From: Bifidobacterium breve | Lineage (GTDB): Bacteria; Actinomycetota; Acidimicrobiia; Acidimicrobiales; Ilumatobacteraceae | Direction of reading: 5' to 3' | Length of the DNA stretch: 48,997 nt | NCBI GenBank assembly: GCA_945893395.1 | Contig: CAMDEC010000005.1 | Span: 1-48,997, forward strand | Shown: piece by piece, positions 1-48,997 of the stretch | Numbering within the stretch: position 1 is the first letter of the stretch | Layout: every line of letters begins with the position of its first letter | Notes under the pieces: generated by a model | What the model was told of the DNA's origin: nothing | The model's input: only the letters and a program-made list of their open reading frames with translations | Databases searched by the model: none | Position numbers and translations under genes: made by a program

Positions 1-891
1 GACGCAATTATCGCGATTGGTGGTGGCAGTGCCATGGATGGCGGCAAGGCGATTTGTTTGACGGCGAATAATTCGATCGATCTTTGGGATTTTGAATTTG
101 AAAAACCAGCCCCGAAAATTGACCGTGGTTCTGAGTTTCCGAAACTGATAACAATCCCTACAACTGCTGGCACGGGGGCCGAGACCGAAAGCACCGGCAT
201 GGTTACTGATTCGAAAAAAGCGATGAAGTTTTGTGTGTGGCACCCAAATTTAAAACCATCGCTTGCGCTTCTCGACCCTGAATTAACAATCGGTTTGCCG
301 GCGAATCTAACTGCATGGACAGGGGTCGATGCAATGGTTCACGCAATTGAATCTTTTCTGGTGCCGGGTTTTAATCCGCTTTGTGATGGTTTGGCACTCG
401 AAGCGCTGGGTCTGATTTCAACTTGGTTGCCGATTGCCGTGGCCGAGCCGACAAATTTGACCGCGCGCGGAGGCATGCACGTGGGTTCGTGTTTGGCTGG
501 CATTTCGTTTCTGAAAGGTCTTGGCCTTGTTCACGCAATCTCGCACATGGTTGGTGCTGAGTACAACACACATCACGGTCTAACAAACGCGATCATTCTG
601 CCGGTGGTGTTGCGCTTTAATTTGCCCGGCATGCAAGACAAGGTGCAACGCATGGCCCAGGCGATGAATATGCCGGATCACTCGGTATCTGGTTTTATTA
701 ATTCGGTCGAAGCGATGCTCGACGAGATCAAGATTCCAAAGTCGTTAGGCGAAATCGGCGTGCCGGCAGATTGTGCAGAACGAATCGCCGGCAAAGCGCT
801 GAAAGATTCGGCGGCGCGTACGAATCCGCGTGCTGCAAGTTTGGCCGAGGTTCAGTCGCTGACTGAAACTGCGATTGCTAAAGCACGCTAA
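1..891 (+). CDS. Iron-containing alcohol dehydrogenase, 5'-truncated by window edge
   Basis: This is a group III, metal-dependent NAD(P)-linked alcohol dehydrogenase; the substrate cannot be told from sequence. The reading frame is open from base 1, so the start lies outside the window. The first residues DAIIAIGGGSAMDGGKA hold the family's GGGSxxDxxK nucleotide-binding motif, which normally sits near residue 95, so about 80–95 residues are missing. The metal ligands are visible as GVDAMVHAIESF (Asp and His) and the two histidines of GLGLVHAISHMVGAEYNTHHG. The motif PTTAGTGAETES is also typical. About 297 residues remain and they run to the normal C-terminus. The next gene, on the opposite strand, ends 11 bases downstream. 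The family is secure; a maleylacetate reductase or lactaldehyde reductase role cannot be excluded. Confidence 0.93.
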   Translation, partial: DAIIAIGGGSAMDGGKAICLTANNSIDLWDFEFEKPAPKIDRGSEFPKLITIPTTAGTGAETESTGMVTDSKKAMKFCVWHPNLKPSLALLDPELTIGLPANLTAWTGVDAMVHAIESFLVPGFNPLCDGLALEALGLISTWLPIAVAEPTNLTARGGMHVGSCLAGISFLKGLGLVHAISHMVGAEYNTHHGLTNAIILPVVLRFNLPGMQDKVQRMAQAMNMPDHSVSGFINSVEAMLDEIKIPKSLGEIGVPADCAERIAGKALKDSAARTNPRAASLAEVQSLTETAIAKAR

Positions 892-902
892 AAATCAACC
901 AA

Positions 903-1931
903 CTATTTCTTTTTGTAGCCGCTTGGACATTTTGGATTTGCGCCGGTCACTTTTTTGGTGGTCTTGCCTTTTACGCAAGTGATGGTTGTCTTTGTTGTTG
1001 CTTTCTTGCCGCCAGTGATTGCAACTTCAGCAGACGACTGTTTTATCGCAATCATGCCGCGCTTGATCGTATATGTAACATCACCAAGTGCTCCGGCAAC
1101 TGCGGTCGCATAATAAACACGAAACACATTCGTCGAGACTTCGTATCCAGTCGGGTCGAGGCGACGAAGATCAGAACCTGAAATCTTTTGCGGTTTTGCC
1201 CAAGTGAGACCATCGTTCGAGGTCGACATATAGAGTTTTTGCACGCCATCGCCGCAACCAGGGCCGTCGGCCATGACCATCACCCAGTCGCCATCTTTGG
1301 CACGCAGAACTTCGGTGTCGACATAGCCACCTTCAAGACGCCAACCTGCTTCTTTCGTGAACGAGATGCCGTCGCTTGAAATGTAACTCGCGACTTTCTC
1401 TGGACAGTTACTGCTCAGCGTCGGTGATTCGACTACATATAGACGCACTTTGCCGTCGGGTGTGACGACAGCATCGGGTACTCCCCACGCTTTAACATTT
1501 CGCGAGACGACAAGTTCTGCTGCGGCAACAGTTGATGTGCCAACTGCCGTGCATGCCGCCGTCAAACAAGCGGAAGAAGATACAGATTTTGTGGCAGCAT
1601 TTGGAGATTCGTCAACGAAGTAGGCGCGACGATTGCCATTGGGCAGTGTGATCGCCGTGAAGTCGTTACCTAAGCGCCCCGTAACGGGCACACTCGCACA
1701 CGCACCAGCGTCGGTGCAATCACTAACAATCACTCCGGCGAGACTCGGGTGCCAAAGTCGGTCGGCGTTGCCCGTGCGTTCAACGTGTGGCGAAGCACCT
1801 GTAAGATCAAGTGACACGGCGTCTTCGGTGAGCCCCCACTCGACGACTGCACTAGCTGTTGGCACCTGCGTGACGCCCCCGACAAGCGAAAACCCGAGTG
1901 CGATTGCGAGGAACGATTTTTTGATGCGCAT
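903..1931 (-). CDS. Secreted beta-propeller-like protein with Cys/Lys-rich C-terminal tail
   Basis: I recognise no enzyme family. The product begins with a clear signal peptide (MRIKKSFLAIALGFSLVGG, then ending near TASA). The body has repeated blocks such as YFVDESP, VRLYVVESP and KLYMSTSNDGLTWAKP, reminiscent of BNR/sialidase-like propeller strands. The last ~30 residues form a distinct tail rich in Thr and Lys with two cysteines (TCVKGKTTKKVTG, then PKCPSGYKKK). I recall this tail on many exported proteins of Acidimicrobiia, where it may be a surface-anchoring or sorting tag; that function is inference. I chose the ATG at 1931 over the ATG at 1937 because a GGAGG ribosome site directly abuts the upstream ATG and is 6 nt from the chosen one. 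The product has 342 residues. It diverges from the oxidoreductase gene that starts at 1991. Confidence 0.8.
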   Translation of the reverse strand: MRIKKSFLAIALGFSLVGGVTQVPTASAVVEWGLTEDAVSLDLTGASPHVERTGNADRLWHPSLAGVIVSDCTDAGACASVPVTGRLGNDFTAITLPNGNRRAYFVDESPNAATKSVSSSACLTAACTAVGTSTVAAAELVVSRNVKAWGVPDAVVTPDGKVRLYVVESPTLSSNCPEKVASYISSDGISFTKEAGWRLEGGYVDTEVLRAKDGDWVMVMADGPGCGDGVQKLYMSTSNDGLTWAKPQKISGSDLRRLDPTGYEVSTNVFRVYYATAVAGALGDVTYTIKRGMIAIKQSSAEVAITGGKKATTKTTITCVKGKTTKKVTGANPKCPSGYKKK

Positions 1932-31975: not shown

Positions 31976-32000
31976 AAACGTAATTAAAAACTAAATAGAA

Positions 32001-32123
32001 CTTCTTGCAGGGTTGGGTGAAATTCCCTATCGGCGGTTAAAGCCCGCGACTCTCTCGAGCAATCGTGAGACTGATCTGGTGTGACTCCAGGGCCGACGGT
32101 AAAGTCCGGATGGAAGCAAGAAG
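32001..32123 (+). ncRNA. FMN riboswitch (RFN element)
   Basis: The sequence follows the RFN consensus closely. P1 is a perfect 8-bp helix, CTTCTTGC (32001–32008) with GCAAGAAG (32116–32123). Between them are GGGTGAAATTCCC (32014–32026 region), the invariant CGGCGGTTAAAGCCCGCGA block, TCTGGTGTGACTCCAG, and GCCGACGGTAAAGTCCGGATGGAAG. It binds flavin mononucleotide and shuts off the ribD–ribBA–ribH genes that follow when FMN is plentiful. No classical terminator with a U-run follows, so regulation is probably translational. Confidence 0.95.
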
Positions 32124-32172
32124 CGGTTATACGCGTGCGCTTTATGCGTTGCGCGTCAAGCCGTTCGCTGAC

Positions 32173-44659: not shown

Positions 44660-45025
44660 TCAGTTACTCGCGACGACAGCCACAGCCATGTCATCGGTGT
44701 GCGAAAGCGAAACGAGCCAACTCTGCACACCTTGGGCTTGGGCAAGTTCAAGAGCTCGACCAGTCACGATCAATTCGGGCGCGCCAGTTTCAGAATTGCG
44801 GATTGAAACATCGTGCAAGTCAAAAGCCCCGAGCCCAACACCAAGTGCCTTCATCGTCGCCTCACGCGCGGCAAATCGCACGGCCAAACTTGGTGCACTA
44901 TCCACACGACCCGACAATGATTCAAGTTCGGCCAATGTAAAAACTCGCGTGCGCAAATTTGGCGTGCGGTCCAGTGCATCACGAAATCGTCGCACGCTGA
45001 CAGCATCAATACCCAGACCAATCAT
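44660..45025 (-). CDS. acpS: Holo-[acyl-carrier-protein] synthase
   Basis: Transfers 4'-phosphopantetheine from CoA to acyl carrier protein. The product has 121 residues. Mg/CoA ligands are Asp7 in IGLGIDAV and the Glu in RFAAREATMKALG (about 49–61); the C-terminus has WLVSLSHTDDMAVA. The ATG at 45025 is chosen because AAGGGAG lies 8 nt upstream and homologues begin MI-GID; a farther start at 45049 would lie inside glmS. Its ribosome site overlaps the end of the glmS gene. Confidence 0.95.
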   Translation of the reverse strand: MIGLGIDAVSVRRFRDALDRTPNLRTRVFTLAELESLSGRVDSAPSLAVRFAAREATMKALGVGLGAFDLHDVSIRNSETGAPELIVTGRALELAQAQGVQSWLVSLSHTDDMAVAVVASN

Positions 45026-45030
45026 CTGCG

Positions 45031-48000
45031 CTACTCCCTTGTTCGCCAATGATCAGCCATGTCGCTGATCGGCAAGATCAGCAAATCGGCAACCGACACC
45101 TCAGCCAATCGATCTTCCCTGAACGCACCTTCGGTTTCTGTCACCCAGTCGACAAGTCGGTCATAACGGCGGTCGTAACCTTGCAGCACCGCGCGCATCG
45201 CCGTGGCTGGCAGTCGATCCTGAAACATCACATGCAACAGCGTGATGCCCGTGGTCTGTCCGCCTTTTGTTTCTGGCACCATGATCACCGTGCGATTGTC
45301 GCTGCGGCCACGAGCCACAAGAACTTCTTGGTCGCTGGCAACCCGACGCTTGGTGCCCACTAGTTGCGAATTTCGATCGACTCGCGAGGTCAGATTCTTT
45401 GACATTCCACCGCGATCAATGATCGTGATTGTTGCCGCGCCACTGACGATGTCGCCTTCGATTTGATATCGAGTAAACCCGGTTACGGCACCCACTGCGG
45501 CGTCTAGGTCTGCCACGATCTTGAGCACCCGATATGAAAGTCGCTCACGCGCCACTCCCGCTTCAAGCAACGCCTTGACCAACTTGCGGTCAAACAAACC
45601 TTCGTCACTTCGCGAGATACCCACGGTCACGGTCTTTGCCTGATGCTTGATCGCATCAACGGGACGCGTCAATTCGTCAACGCCACGCGTCAGCGCACTC
45701 GTCAAATCGTCGAGCAACAGTTCTGGTGAGGCAATCTTGCCCGAACTGCGCTGATACGCCTGAACCGGGTCGCTCGCCAGCGTGTCACGCAACATCGTCA
45801 CGATTCGCACCGCCGTACTGGCTTCCAGGTTGCCGTCGTAGTTGCCAGTGGCCAATGCATCGGTAAATCGTGTCGCAGGTGCACCCAACTCGGTGCGAAT
45901 CTTTTCCAACAATTTGTTGGCGTCACCGCCACGCTCAACTGCGTGTTCAACAACTTCGCGCGCTTCACGCAACGGCCGCGCCAAAGCATCAATCGCCAGT
46001 GCCGCCTCGTAGCCGAACAAATGTCCGACCATCACGCTCAAAATAAACGACAGGCTCGTCTCGACATTCGGCACCAACAACACCGCGGCGGCGGCATCAA
46101 AGCGCGTCTGGCCCGCTGTCGCAACGACGATCGGCAAGGCCTTGTGCGCACGGTAAATCGCAATTTCTTTGGCCACGTCTGACGCCGTACCTTCGAGCAG
46201 CCCGGTTGCACACACAAAAATCAACGGTTCACAAGACAAGTCAATGTGTTTTTTGTCCTCGGTTGAGTCGCTCGAAATTGATTTATAACAAAGCTCGGAC
46301 AATTTAATCCGCACCTCTTGGGCCGCGATCAAATTCATGCCGTTGCCAACCACCGTCCAGTAGCGTCGCGATGACGCAAACTGTTTCGCCGCCGCCGCAA
46401 TCTCTGGTCGCGTCGCCAAAACTTCAACAAGCGCATCAGGTATCTTGCGCAAACCAGCCAAGAGCTCATGTCGCGCACGGTCAGAAGATTTACCAAGCGC
46501 TTTTGACAACGCACACGCATAAAGTGCGCCGGCTGCAACCTGCGCGTAAAATGCCTTGGTGCTGGCAACGCTCATCTCGACGTCGCGACCGTCAGATGTA
46601 TACATCACACCATCTGCTTTCGCCGCAAGCTCACTGCCACGACGATTGACGATCGCCAGAACACTCGCGCCGCGCGCCCGCGCCAAGTCAACGGTGCGAT
46701 TCGTGTCGGTTGTAGTGCCGCTTTGGCTTACCGCAACAACGAGCGTGTCGCTCATATCAAGTTGCAGACCAAAACCCGAAAGTTCACTGGCCAACAGCGC
46801 TTCGGCGCTCAAACCAATGCCAACCAATTCGTTCAGCAACTTGGCAAGTGCCTGACCAGCAACTGCCGCCGTTCCCTGGCCGATCACACGAACTTTTGTT
46901 ATTGTGCCCGACGCCAACCGATCACAAATTGATTGTGGCAAAACTCTTTCGCCCAGATCGGTTGCCAACACGCCGTTGTTTTCGACAATTCGCCCGCGAA
47001 TTGTTTTACGGAAACTTTCCGGCGCTTCGGCAATCTCTTTTGCCAAAAAATGTTTGTGCTCGCCGCGATTTATATCTCGTGTCGTTATCTCGGCAGTCAA
47101 AACTTTCTCAGCGGTCAAATCAATTCTGCGTCCGTCATACGCGACCAACTCGATACCAGATAATTCGCCGGCGTTGGCTGCCGAGAGGGCAACTACTTGA
47201 CCTCTGCTCGACGGATTATTTATGTCGGCGAGGGCCTCTCCATCCATGCGCACATAGTTGAGAGTCTCTTCGACCACGCCGTATGGTTCGCTGGCAACAA
47301 TGAATCGATCCTCGGCAAGACCAATGCACAATCCTTGACCACTGCCGTGCAGAGCCAGCAACAATTTATCCGGCTCAGTCGCACCCGCGACCGCAATCGC
47401 CACCGAACCCTCAAACTGGGCGACAGTTTCACGAAATGCGTCGGTCAAATTTTTTGTCGTGGCTAGTTTTCGTGAAACCAATGCAGGGATAACTTTTGCG
47501 TCGGTTGTTATCGGCCCCGCGACACGCAAACCATATTGCACTCGCAGGTCAGCATGGTTGTCAACATCACCGTTCAATGCCGCCACCAAATATGCGTCAT
47601 CATGCTTGCCTTCAAGTTCTTCGCTGTTCACGGGGTGCGCGTTGGGTTCAGAGATGATTCCGACGCTCGCCCACCTGGTGTGTGCCAACACTGCAACTTG
47701 CGCATTTGGTTGCGAGATGCAGAGCCGCAACAAAGCATCAGCCATCACGGCGTTGCGCATCACACGGGTATTGTCGCCAAGTTCGCCAATTTCTGCAGCG
47801 GCCTTATAAACAAACGACCACGCATTTTCGGTTATGCGCATCGCCCCAGACATGAACAATGCATCTTCGCGACGATTCGCCAATAGAGCTTTAACTTCTT
47901 TGTCAGTTGCCTTCAGACCGTGGCTCGATACGAGCACATGAATACCCGCCGAATCGCGACCGCGAACCTCGAGCCGATCCAAACCCGAGAACGCCTGCTG

Positions 48001-48441
48001 AATCGAAAAATATCCGCTGCGTGCCGAATCTGAAGCCCCTTGCCCCGCCAATGCGTCGACGAGTTTCGCCGTGCGAATTCGATCATGACGCAGTTCCCAA
48101 ATCGCGTCTTTGGCGCGAATTATTTCATCCAGTGCATGTTGCGAAGTTTCAGTCTGCAAACTTGCCGATTTCTCGACCGACTGTTCATAGGCGTCGACAA
48201 TCGCATCCAGTTGGTCAATTCGAGAGGTCATCGCCGCAATCAACTGATGGTTGTCGGCCATACACAACTGGCCGGCCTCGCCACGCAAAAGTTTGTCGGC
48301 GGTCGTCACGGCTTGGGCGAGTTGGTCAATGTCACTCTTGGTGCCAGCGTCTAAAGCGGCATCCAACAGAGCCAAGATCTCTTTGGCGGTTGGGGTGGCT
48401 CGTCGAGTCTTACGGCTCAACACGCAGATAATTCCGCACAT
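45031..48441 (-). CDS. glmS: Giant GlmS-like protein: interrupted glutaminase domain, two SIS domains, long C-terminal extension
   Basis: The product has 1136 residues, versus about 600 for glucosamine-6-phosphate synthase. It keeps the N-terminal nucleophile (MCGI, Cys2), but about 140 helical residues (11–150) separate it from the next motif GLDRLEVRGRDSAG (153–166). A second insertion precedes HTRWAS (254–259); NG (290–291) and Asp314 follow. SIS domain 1 (about 515–650) has VIGQGTAAVAGQ, SQSGTTTDT and SVASTKAF; SIS domain 2 (about 690–830) has VVGNGMNLIAAQEV with E709/K713/E716-like positions and His732. The C-terminal active-site Lys of GlmS seems replaced by Arg. Residues about 835–1136 match nothing I know. 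Gene position (glmM upstream, acpS downstream) supports a GlmS role. Confidence 0.85.
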   Translation of the reverse strand: MCGIICVLSRKTRRATPTAKEILALLDAALDAGTKSDIDQLAQAVTTADKLLRGEAGQLCMADNHQLIAAMTSRIDQLDAIVDAYEQSVEKSASLQTETSQHALDEIIRAKDAIWELRHDRIRTAKLVDALAGQGASDSARSGYFSIQQAFSGLDRLEVRGRDSAGIHVLVSSHGLKATDKEVKALLANRREDALFMSGAMRITENAWSFVYKAAAEIGELGDNTRVMRNAVMADALLRLCISQPNAQVAVLAHTRWASVGIISEPNAHPVNSEELEGKHDDAYLVAALNGDVDNHADLRVQYGLRVAGPITTDAKVIPALVSRKLATTKNLTDAFRETVAQFEGSVAIAVAGATEPDKLLLALHGSGQGLCIGLAEDRFIVASEPYGVVEETLNYVRMDGEALADINNPSSRGQVVALSAANAGELSGIELVAYDGRRIDLTAEKVLTAEITTRDINRGEHKHFLAKEIAEAPESFRKTIRGRIVENNGVLATDLGERVLPQSICDRLASGTITKVRVIGQGTAAVAGQALAKLLNELVGIGLSAEALLASELSGFGLQLDMSDTLVVAVSQSGTTTDTNRTVDLARARGASVLAIVNRRGSELAAKADGVMYTSDGRDVEMSVASTKAFYAQVAAGALYACALSKALGKSSDRARHELLAGLRKIPDALVEVLATRPEIAAAAKQFASSRRYWTVVGNGMNLIAAQEVRIKLSELCYKSISSDSTEDKKHIDLSCEPLIFVCATGLLEGTASDVAKEIAIYRAHKALPIVVATAGQTRFDAAAAVLLVPNVETSLSFILSVMVGHLFGYEAALAIDALARPLREAREVVEHAVERGGDANKLLEKIRTELGAPATRFTDALATGNYDGNLEASTAVRIVTMLRDTLASDPVQAYQRSSGKIASPELLLDDLTSALTRGVDELTRPVDAIKHQAKTVTVGISRSDEGLFDRKLVKALLEAGVARERLSYRVLKIVADLDAAVGAVTGFTRYQIEGDIVSGAATITIIDRGGMSKNLTSRVDRNSQLVGTKRRVASDQEVLVARGRSDNRTVIMVPETKGGQTTGITLLHVMFQDRLPATAMRAVLQGYDRRYDRLVDWVTETEGAFREDRLAEVSVADLLILPISDMADHWRTRE

Positions 48442-48468: not shown

Positions 48469-48997
48469 TCAGCCGAGTCGCGCAGTTATCGCGTCGGCCA
48501 ATGTTGCAGCCACCGTCTCAGCCGTATCTTGTTGCGGTGCCTCAACCATAACCCGCACCATCGGCTCGGTTCCACTTGCACGCACCAAAACGCGACCGAC
48601 TCCTCCAAGGGATTTCTCGGCCATTGCGATCTCGTTTTTGAAAAGTTGATCTATGTCTTCAATTCGTCTGCTGACGCGAAGGTTGACCAACACCTGAGGA
48701 AAACTAGTCATTGCTTGACTGGCGATCTCGCTCAGCGATTTTTTTGAACCAACGATCAACGAAGCAAGTCTCAGCGCCGCAAGCAAACCATCGCCGGTTG
48801 TCGCCAAATCACGATAGATAATGTGTCCGCTTTGCTCGCCACCCAACGAAAGCGAACCATGTTCAAGGGCGATCAAAACCGATCTGTCACCGACCGGGGT
48901 CGTGACTACTTCAATCTCTGCTTGCTTCATCGCCTGGTGAAAGCCGATGTTGGTCATAACCGTCACGACAACTTTGTTGTTCCGCAAAGTTCCCTGC
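48469..48997 (-). CDS. glmM: Phosphoglucosamine mutase, N-terminal part outside window
   Basis: Converts glucosamine-6-phosphate to glucosamine-1-phosphate, the step after GlmS in UDP-GlcNAc synthesis. Only the last ~175 residues are in the window, and the frame is open to the edge. Visible are NNKVVVTVMTNIGFHQAM, the sugar-binding loop LGGEQSGHII, the TTGDGLLAALRLA block, and the phosphate-binding RASGTEPMVRVMVEA at the C-terminus. The active-site serine and Mg loop lie outside. Adjacent glmS makes the two genes a pathway pair. Confidence 0.95.
   Translation of the reverse strand, partial: QGTLRNNKVVVTVMTNIGFHQAMKQAEIEVVTTPVGDRSVLIALEHGSLSLGGEQSGHIIYRDLATTGDGLLAALRLASLIVGSKKSLSEIASQAMTSFPQVLVNLRVSRRIEDIDQLFKNEIAMAEKSLGGVGRVLVRASGTEPMVRVMVEAPQQDTAETVAATLADAITARLG

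Follow-up and report, generated by a model that had tools for sequence, protein, structure and literature searches.

The glucosamine-6-phosphate (GlcN6P) synthase GlmS is the enzyme at which carbon and nitrogen become committed to the cell wall; a review describes it as a studied antimicrobial target with subunits of 589-716 amino acids (PMC9272926). Here we describe a longer form of GlmS, encoded in a stretch of 48,997 nt (the window, contig CAMDEC010000005.1 of assembly GCA_945893395.1), whose GTDB lineage is Ilumatobacteraceae of the class Acidimicrobiia. The unusual 1136-residue open reading frame pointed out in the initial annotation of the window is real; it lies on the minus strand at 45031..48441, residues 1-1136 running from 48441 down to 45034 and the stop codon occupying 45031-45033. 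By its sequence the product is a divergent GlmS with retained catalytic residues, into which three additional modules have been built, so placed that the catalytic C-terminal tail (C-tail) of canonical enzymes lies inside the chain.

The protein begins with MCGI, the expected start of an N-terminal nucleophile (Ntn) glutaminase. Residues 1-9 (48415..48441) comprise Met, the nucleophile Cys2, aligned to Cys1 of Escherichia coli GlmS, and the first glutaminase strand (residues 3-9 in the structural model). The remaining part of the glutaminase domain occupies residues 138-455 (47077..48030), with RGRDSAG at 160-166, HTRW at 254, NG at 290 and D314. It is followed by two SIS domains of approximate borders with the sugar-phosphate binding SQSG.T motif: SIS1 at residues 456-660 (46462..47076), with SQSGTTTDT from 572 and STK from 627, and SIS2 at residues 661-817 (45991..46461), with K713, E716, K731 and H732. 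Pfam recognizes a glutamine amidotransferase domain at 250-385 and a single SIS domain, SIS1, at 517-642 (PF01380, 61.4 bits); SIS2, unreported by Pfam, is covered by the NCBIfam match and assigned from the sequence and structural alignments and the model. The NCBIfam scores are 275.4 bits for PRK00331 (cut-off 381) and 245.5 bits for TIGR01135 (cut-off 418), with the best stretch at 225-816; the equivalog cut-off of 418 bits, which the window protein fails, is an annotation rule and not a biological definition. The best sequence relative in the PDB is GlmS (E about 1e-35), and identity to E. coli GlmS over the core is about 27%.

Conservation was assessed in 77 long sequences aligned with E. 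coli GlmS (the window protein and 76 of 80 loci, four being left out as broken or cut), to which 20 more divergent ones were added (five belong to other classes of the phylum), giving 97 long sequences. The canonical set (n = 34) comprised E. coli GlmS and 33 sequences (30 best-scoring and three others); the canonical sequences were best-scoring matches only, and their uniformity may be overstated. The architecture is common to the 77 and to the 20 further members, which is above chance. The catalytic Cys is present in 96 of the 97 long sequences, the remaining row starting late. The residues of glutamine binding and the channel (R73, W74, N98, G99 and D123 in E. coli numbering), as well as S347, S349, T352, K485, E488, H504 and K603, are each found in 97/97, and K713, E716, K731, H732 and K936 of the window protein are invariant. 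S303 is replaced by Ala, as it also is in 11/34 canonical sequences. Other changes are family-wide: Y25 to V, Y28 to R, T76 to S, H77 to V, I or M, E351 to T, and G-E-L-K-H-G-P (500-506) to E-D-K-K-H-I-D. The initial annotation had contrasted TEDKKHIDLS with ELKHGPLAL of GlmS and proposed that the chemistry may differ; the flanking residues do differ throughout the family, but Lys503 and His504 are kept (K731 and H732). Its placing of the Schiff-base lysine region at EAREVVE was not confirmed: this motif lies at the start of an inserted helical module, and the residue aligned to Lys603 is K936, some 100 positions nearer the C-terminus. The proposed absence of the catalytic lysine was rejected, K936 being found by both sequence and structural alignment, and this ground for a different chemistry is unsupported, Glu488, His504 and Lys603 being retained in all 97 sequences.

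K936 (codon at 45634..45636, checked) is situated in RPVDAIKHQAKTVTVGISR, which corresponds to the terminal ...PRNLAKSVTVE of canonical enzymes but is displaced, and the surrounding segment ELTRPVDAIKHQAKTVTVGISR (residues 923-944, 45610..45675) aligns with the last residues of E. coli GlmS (...DQPRNLAKSVTVE). All 33 canonical sequences taken and E. coli GlmS terminate in VTVE, whereas the long form has about 190 amino acids beyond the C-tail. A profile of the canonical tail finds its best site in the whole protein at this position, and the same motif is present in 77/77 aligned long sequences. The full-length model (mean predicted local distance difference test score, pLDDT, 87.2; predicted template modelling score, pTM, 0.76) was superposed by VIA on E. 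coli GlmS 1jxa with Z 43.4 and a root-mean-square deviation (rmsd) of 4.7 over 597 residues, 2..942 of the model corresponding to 1..608. With 2vf4, residues 457..934 correspond to 243..601 of the chain, in the same register as in the sequence alignment. Three observations count against this placement. The score of the C-tail motif is matched by 74 of 10000 shuffled C-terminal regions, the pLDDT falls below 50 at residues 937-945, and the structural register of the C-tail varies by 0-3 residues between chains, the last aligned pairs being one residue off in 1jxa, 2j6h and 1moq, two in 7dnr and about three in some rows of the eukaryotic homolog GFAT. The likeness of the motif is therefore weak when taken alone, and the assignment is carried by invariance together with structure; the predicted structure places the C-tail at 923-944 but, as the chains disagree, leaves its register unfixed by itself.

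The first added module (residues 10-137, 48031..48414) is predicted from the alignment and the model helices to be a helical insert between the first glutaminase strand and the helix preceding RGRDSAG. The distance from Cys2 to Arg160 is 158 residues as compared with 25 in E. coli, close to the initial estimate of about 140. The second module (residues 818-922, 45676..45990), also helical in the model, separates SIS2 from the C-tail, and the third (residues 945-1136, 45034..45609) follows the C-tail as a C-terminal domain of PAS-like topology, according to the model, Foldseek and VIA, with additional C-terminal helices. In the window protein these modules measure about 128, about 105 and about 190 residues. 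Among the 97 long sequences module 1 has 95-148 amino acids (1-11 in the 34 canonical ones), module 2 has 97-139 and the C-terminal domain 127-199, the shortest values including rows cut by contig ends. All three are present in 97/97 long and none of them in 34/34 canonical sequences. The extension of about 300 residues that had been described as one unknown C-terminal domain thus exists (about 319 residues beyond SIS2), but it divides into the helical module, the displaced C-tail and the PAS-like domain.

Positions conserved at 97% or more number 5/128 in module 1, 8/105 in module 2 and 23/192 in the C-terminal domain. For module 1 no Pfam match over the cut-off was obtained with the window's row, nor any significant PDB match, and the structure matches of module 2 are generic helical bundles only; as both gave just weak coiled-coil or generic helical-bundle matches, they were left unnamed. 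Nothing was found in the viral structure library at E <= 0.001. A smaller insertion, also noticed at first reading, precedes HTRWAS: 88 residues separate the end of DSAG from HTRW against 39 in E. coli, so that about 50 extra residues lie within 166-254. In this second glutaminase insertion (residues 172-247, window 47701-47928) 14/76 positions are conserved at 97% or more, around YKAAAEIGELGDNT, a motif with no counterpart seen in canonical GlmS.

The long form is the sole GlmS-like gene found in its own genome (G000, 82% complete), as the initial annotation had supposed. Beyond it, SIS and GATase_6 matches were confined to one fragment on another contig (C29:3-2453), which duplicates residues 1-817 at 99% identity and probably represents strain variation in the assembly. 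The combination that had been named as speaking against a GlmS role, a canonical glmS elsewhere and lost catalytic residues, was not encountered: no canonical gene was found in this 82% complete assembly, and the residues are kept. When the genome and 60 relatives (61 genomes) were searched with the long form, 51 gave matches at E below 1e-100 and were counted as long forms, seven at 1e-25 to 1e-45 only, one a 26-residue piece at a contig end and two no match; in four of the seven weaker genomes (G040, G055, G057 and G060) a canonical glmS scores over the cut-off. Among 296 Acidimicrobiia genomes, 136 carry the long form (counted at E of 1.7e-101 or better), 153 a canonical glmS (a TIGR01135 match over the cut-off), none both over the cut-off and seven neither; TIGR01135 exceeds its cut-off in none of the 136. 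In much of Acidimicrobiia, close to half of the genomes sampled, the long form takes the place of canonical GlmS. Because the window protein scores under the GlmS cut-offs and 0/136 exceed that of TIGR01135, genomes with the long form may be read as lacking glmS.

The seven genomes with neither form are G108, G166, G182, G186, G192, G197 and G273. G186 and G197 probably hold broken canonical genes, since they give canonical-looking matches under the cut-off (6e-89 and 3e-105). In the other five (93-98% complete) there is no long form and no TIGR01135 match better than about 1e-34, which may reflect gaps in the assemblies or a different route. G308 combines the long form with a 236-residue canonical fragment below the cut-off at a contig start, the only such case in the class sample, and G366, from another class (6.5 Mb, 5% contamination), has both forms; likely contamination was read in both. 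In the phylum sample the profile of the C-terminal domain matches 41/396 genomes, 39 strongly (seven outside the class, including G366) and two marginally (G182 and G566, E 3e-4 and 5e-4), the latter not being counted as long forms. NagB was looked for in 12 long-form genomes, chosen because they are in few contigs or highly complete: it was over the cut-off in one, just under it in one and marginal in two. No match was obtained in the remaining eight, so most of the 12 have no obvious other source of GlcN6P from fructose-6-phosphate (Fru6P). A glucosamine kinase family has been described in Actinobacteria (PMC6520443) and may offer another route.

The C-terminal domain folded together with residues 815-944 gave a mean pLDDT of 89.8 and a pTM of 0.59. 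PAS domains have two strands, helices and three strands forming one antiparallel sheet, and the predicted order of strands and helices at residues 983-1073 fits this succession: strands 983-995 and 1004-1012, helices, then strands 1041-1044, 1051-1059 and 1062-1073. The first Foldseek match is the large NAD-glutamate dehydrogenase (GDH) of Mycobacterium smegmatis (7jsr; E 2.5e-3, probability 0.99-1.00), followed mostly by chemoreceptor, CACHE, GAF, PAS/LOV and sensor-kinase domains. In the VIA alignment 174-361 of 7jsr are paired with residues 952-1136 of the long form (Z 8.7, rmsd 4.9, 163 residues). The N-terminal segment of large GDH is described as containing a PAS-type domain and ACT-like domains, together possible metabolic sensors (PMC8175468). 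Residues 174-361 of 7jsr would correspond to that PAS domain and helical motif 1.

Several results speak against a sensor of PAS type. The likeness rests on a predicted model with a pTM of 0.59; Foldseek gives no match for the domain at E <= 0.001, and its alignments to 7jsr have TM scores of 0.28-0.33 and an rmsd of 22; Z 8.7 hardly exceeds the level that VIA calls common; and Pfam has no match for the window's C-terminal domain. The hhalign profile comparison with large GDH was not significant (P 0.069, or P 0.36 with fewer sequences). The value of 0.069, the best of seven pairs with this domain, is at background level, since comparisons among the other modules gave 0.06 and 0.07 for two pairs. 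Homology to large GDH by profile was not accepted, and we use the term PAS-like rather than PAS, because the profile comparison leaves homology unconfirmed. In two large GDHs of Acidimicrobiia the region that separates the ACT1 model from that of helical motif 1 is free of Pfam models. The C-terminal profile weakly resembles the GTPase Der/EngA, which was taken as chance, and no match to the domain was found in plasmids or phages at E <= 0.01. Basic residues at positions conserved at 97% or more (R991, R1020, K1031, R1050 and R1092) might, as a guess, suit an anionic ligand. Although the long GlmS is common in the order, only 9/40 of its genomes gave a match to the catalytic domain of large GDH (loci L196-L204).

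From this material the long form is most likely the sole glucosamine-6-phosphate synthase of its host, with the active-site lid tethered to a probable sensor and placed under allosteric control, and for this statement as a whole we estimate a probability of about 0.58. Its parts are of unequal strength: the enzyme role is very probable from the residues retained, and a regulatory rather than structural function of the extra modules is somewhat favoured. Glutamine would be hydrolysed at Cys2 in the glutaminase domain and ammonia would pass to the SIS domains, where, as in E. coli GlmS, the amination and isomerisation of Fru6P would rely on E716, H732 and K936. The C-tail with the Schiff-base lysine, usually a free chain end folding over the sugar, is here tethered on both sides, by the helical module before it and, via a short flexible linker, by the PAS-like domain after it. 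Module 1 is positioned one helix before the RGRDSAG glutaminase loop, which contacts the C-tail in canonical enzymes. The PAS-like domain, on binding a metabolite, would alter the readiness of the lid to close, and closure would gate glutamine use and sugar amination. That a metabolite might in this way pull on the catalytic tail and control entry into peptidoglycan synthesis is a tentative proposal built on the model; to our knowledge such direct control is not known for any bacterial GlmS. The sugar pocket of GFAT-1 is described as covered by the final residues of the chain, and tags placed at the ends as impairing activity (PMC7000685). A report on human GFAT2 points the other way, with little or no effect of a C-terminal His tag (PMC7948480).

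The same protein could be the sole GlmS with its three modules serving structural ends, namely a larger oligomer or a complex with partners such as GlmM, and no ligand sensing. Such a role would agree with the all-or-none presence of the modules in the 131 sequences compared, as expected of interlocking parts, with the helical nature and few invariant residues of two of the three (5/128 and 8/105), with the conserved neighbour glmM and with the weakness of the sensor-like fold match. The C-terminal domain itself fits it poorly, having 23/192 positions conserved at 97% or more, several of them basic, and a PAS-like topology, which is often ligand-binding; the tether to the catalytic lid also argues for control. 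We consider the structural alternative unlikely, although it is the one that deserves most weight beside a tethered, regulated enzyme.

An altered reaction, that is a GlmS-like amidotransferase acting on another sugar phosphate or using ammonia as the main donor, is an improbable explanation. The surroundings of the active site are changed throughout the long family (Y25, Y28, T76, H77, E351 and G500-P506), which counts against an ordinary GlmS and leaves room for such a change, and a branch of 2.5 substitutions per site separates the long form from canonical GlmS. Set against this, the checked catalytic and sugar-phosphate binding residues are kept, except S303, and glmM adjoins the gene. Moreover, the 136 long-form genomes are without an over-cutoff canonical GlmS and NagB is unmatched in 8/12, so something must make glucosamine-6-phosphate. 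An artefact, either a misassembly fusion or a decayed pseudogene, might be suspected from the fragmented, 82% complete assembly and the near-identical fragment on C29, but its probability is negligible: the architecture recurs in 97 sequences that come from many different assemblies, among them the single-contig genomes G062, G038, G063, G187, G276 and G287, and the catalytic residues are invariant. This candidate was regarded as refuted.

The tethered GlmS shares with bacterial GlmS (E. coli; TIGR01135, PDB 1jxa/2j6h) the order of a glutaminase and two SIS domains, the catalytic residues and the kind of C-tail motif, and differs from it in length (1136 against about 608 amino acids), the three added modules, the internal C-tail, the scores below the cut-offs and the altered active-site surroundings. 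The GlmS architecture is also that of eukaryotic GFAT (PDB 6r4e), for which allosteric control by uridine diphosphate N-acetylglucosamine is reported (PMC7000685). GFAT has 687 amino acids in the PDB, and its C-loop is formed by the last residues with no domain beyond, unlike in the long form. Large GDH (7jsr; PMC8175468), also an enzyme of nitrogen metabolism, provides in its PAS domain and helical motif 1 the best structural match (163 residues), but there is no significant profile similarity, and its segment is N-terminal among ACT domains. SIS deaminases of the NagB-II type have SIS domains in common with the long form (NCBIfam 71 bits at 503-719), and their structures appear among the lower VIA rows; the score is far below the cut-off (430), and Z is about 30-32 versus 43 for GlmS. 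These deaminases are not known to have a glutaminase domain. No description of such a long GlmS, nor of control by pulling on the tail, was found in the open-access literature searched, part of it seen as excerpts; GlmS itself is known, while novelty seems to lie in the long variant, its replacement of the canonical form through much of the class and the embedded tail. By retaining the catalytic residues with the tail set between two modules, such a clade would be a natural experiment on how lid, ammonia channel and both active sites are coupled.

In a tree of 596 core columns the 97 long sequences are split from the 33 canonical ones and E. coli with support 1.0 and a branch of the length given above; with E. 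coli as the one outgroup from outside the phylum, this tree fixes neither the direction of the split nor its age. Upstream of the long gene lies the 3' part of an open reading frame at 48469..48996 (minus strand), cut by the window end, which we, like the initial annotation, take to be glmM; it adjoins the gene, as had been stated. The downstream frame at 44660..45049 (minus strand), presumably acpS, has a listed start that overlaps the end of the long glmS. In long loci with room on the respective side, a same-strand glmM match ends within 600 nt upstream in 65/74 and an acpS match starts within 600 nt downstream in 70/74. Anywhere in the fetched stretch of the 80 long loci, glmM was matched in 72, acpS in 71 and alr in 66. 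Canonical loci, with flanks of about 1.5 kb or less, have a glmM match in 25/33 and acpS in 15/33, which suggests that both GlmS forms often occupy the same genomic place. Elsewhere in the window, a flavin mononucleotide (FMN) riboswitch (RF00050, 118 bits) was detected on the plus strand at 31999-32125, just before or overlapping the open reading frame listed from 32081.

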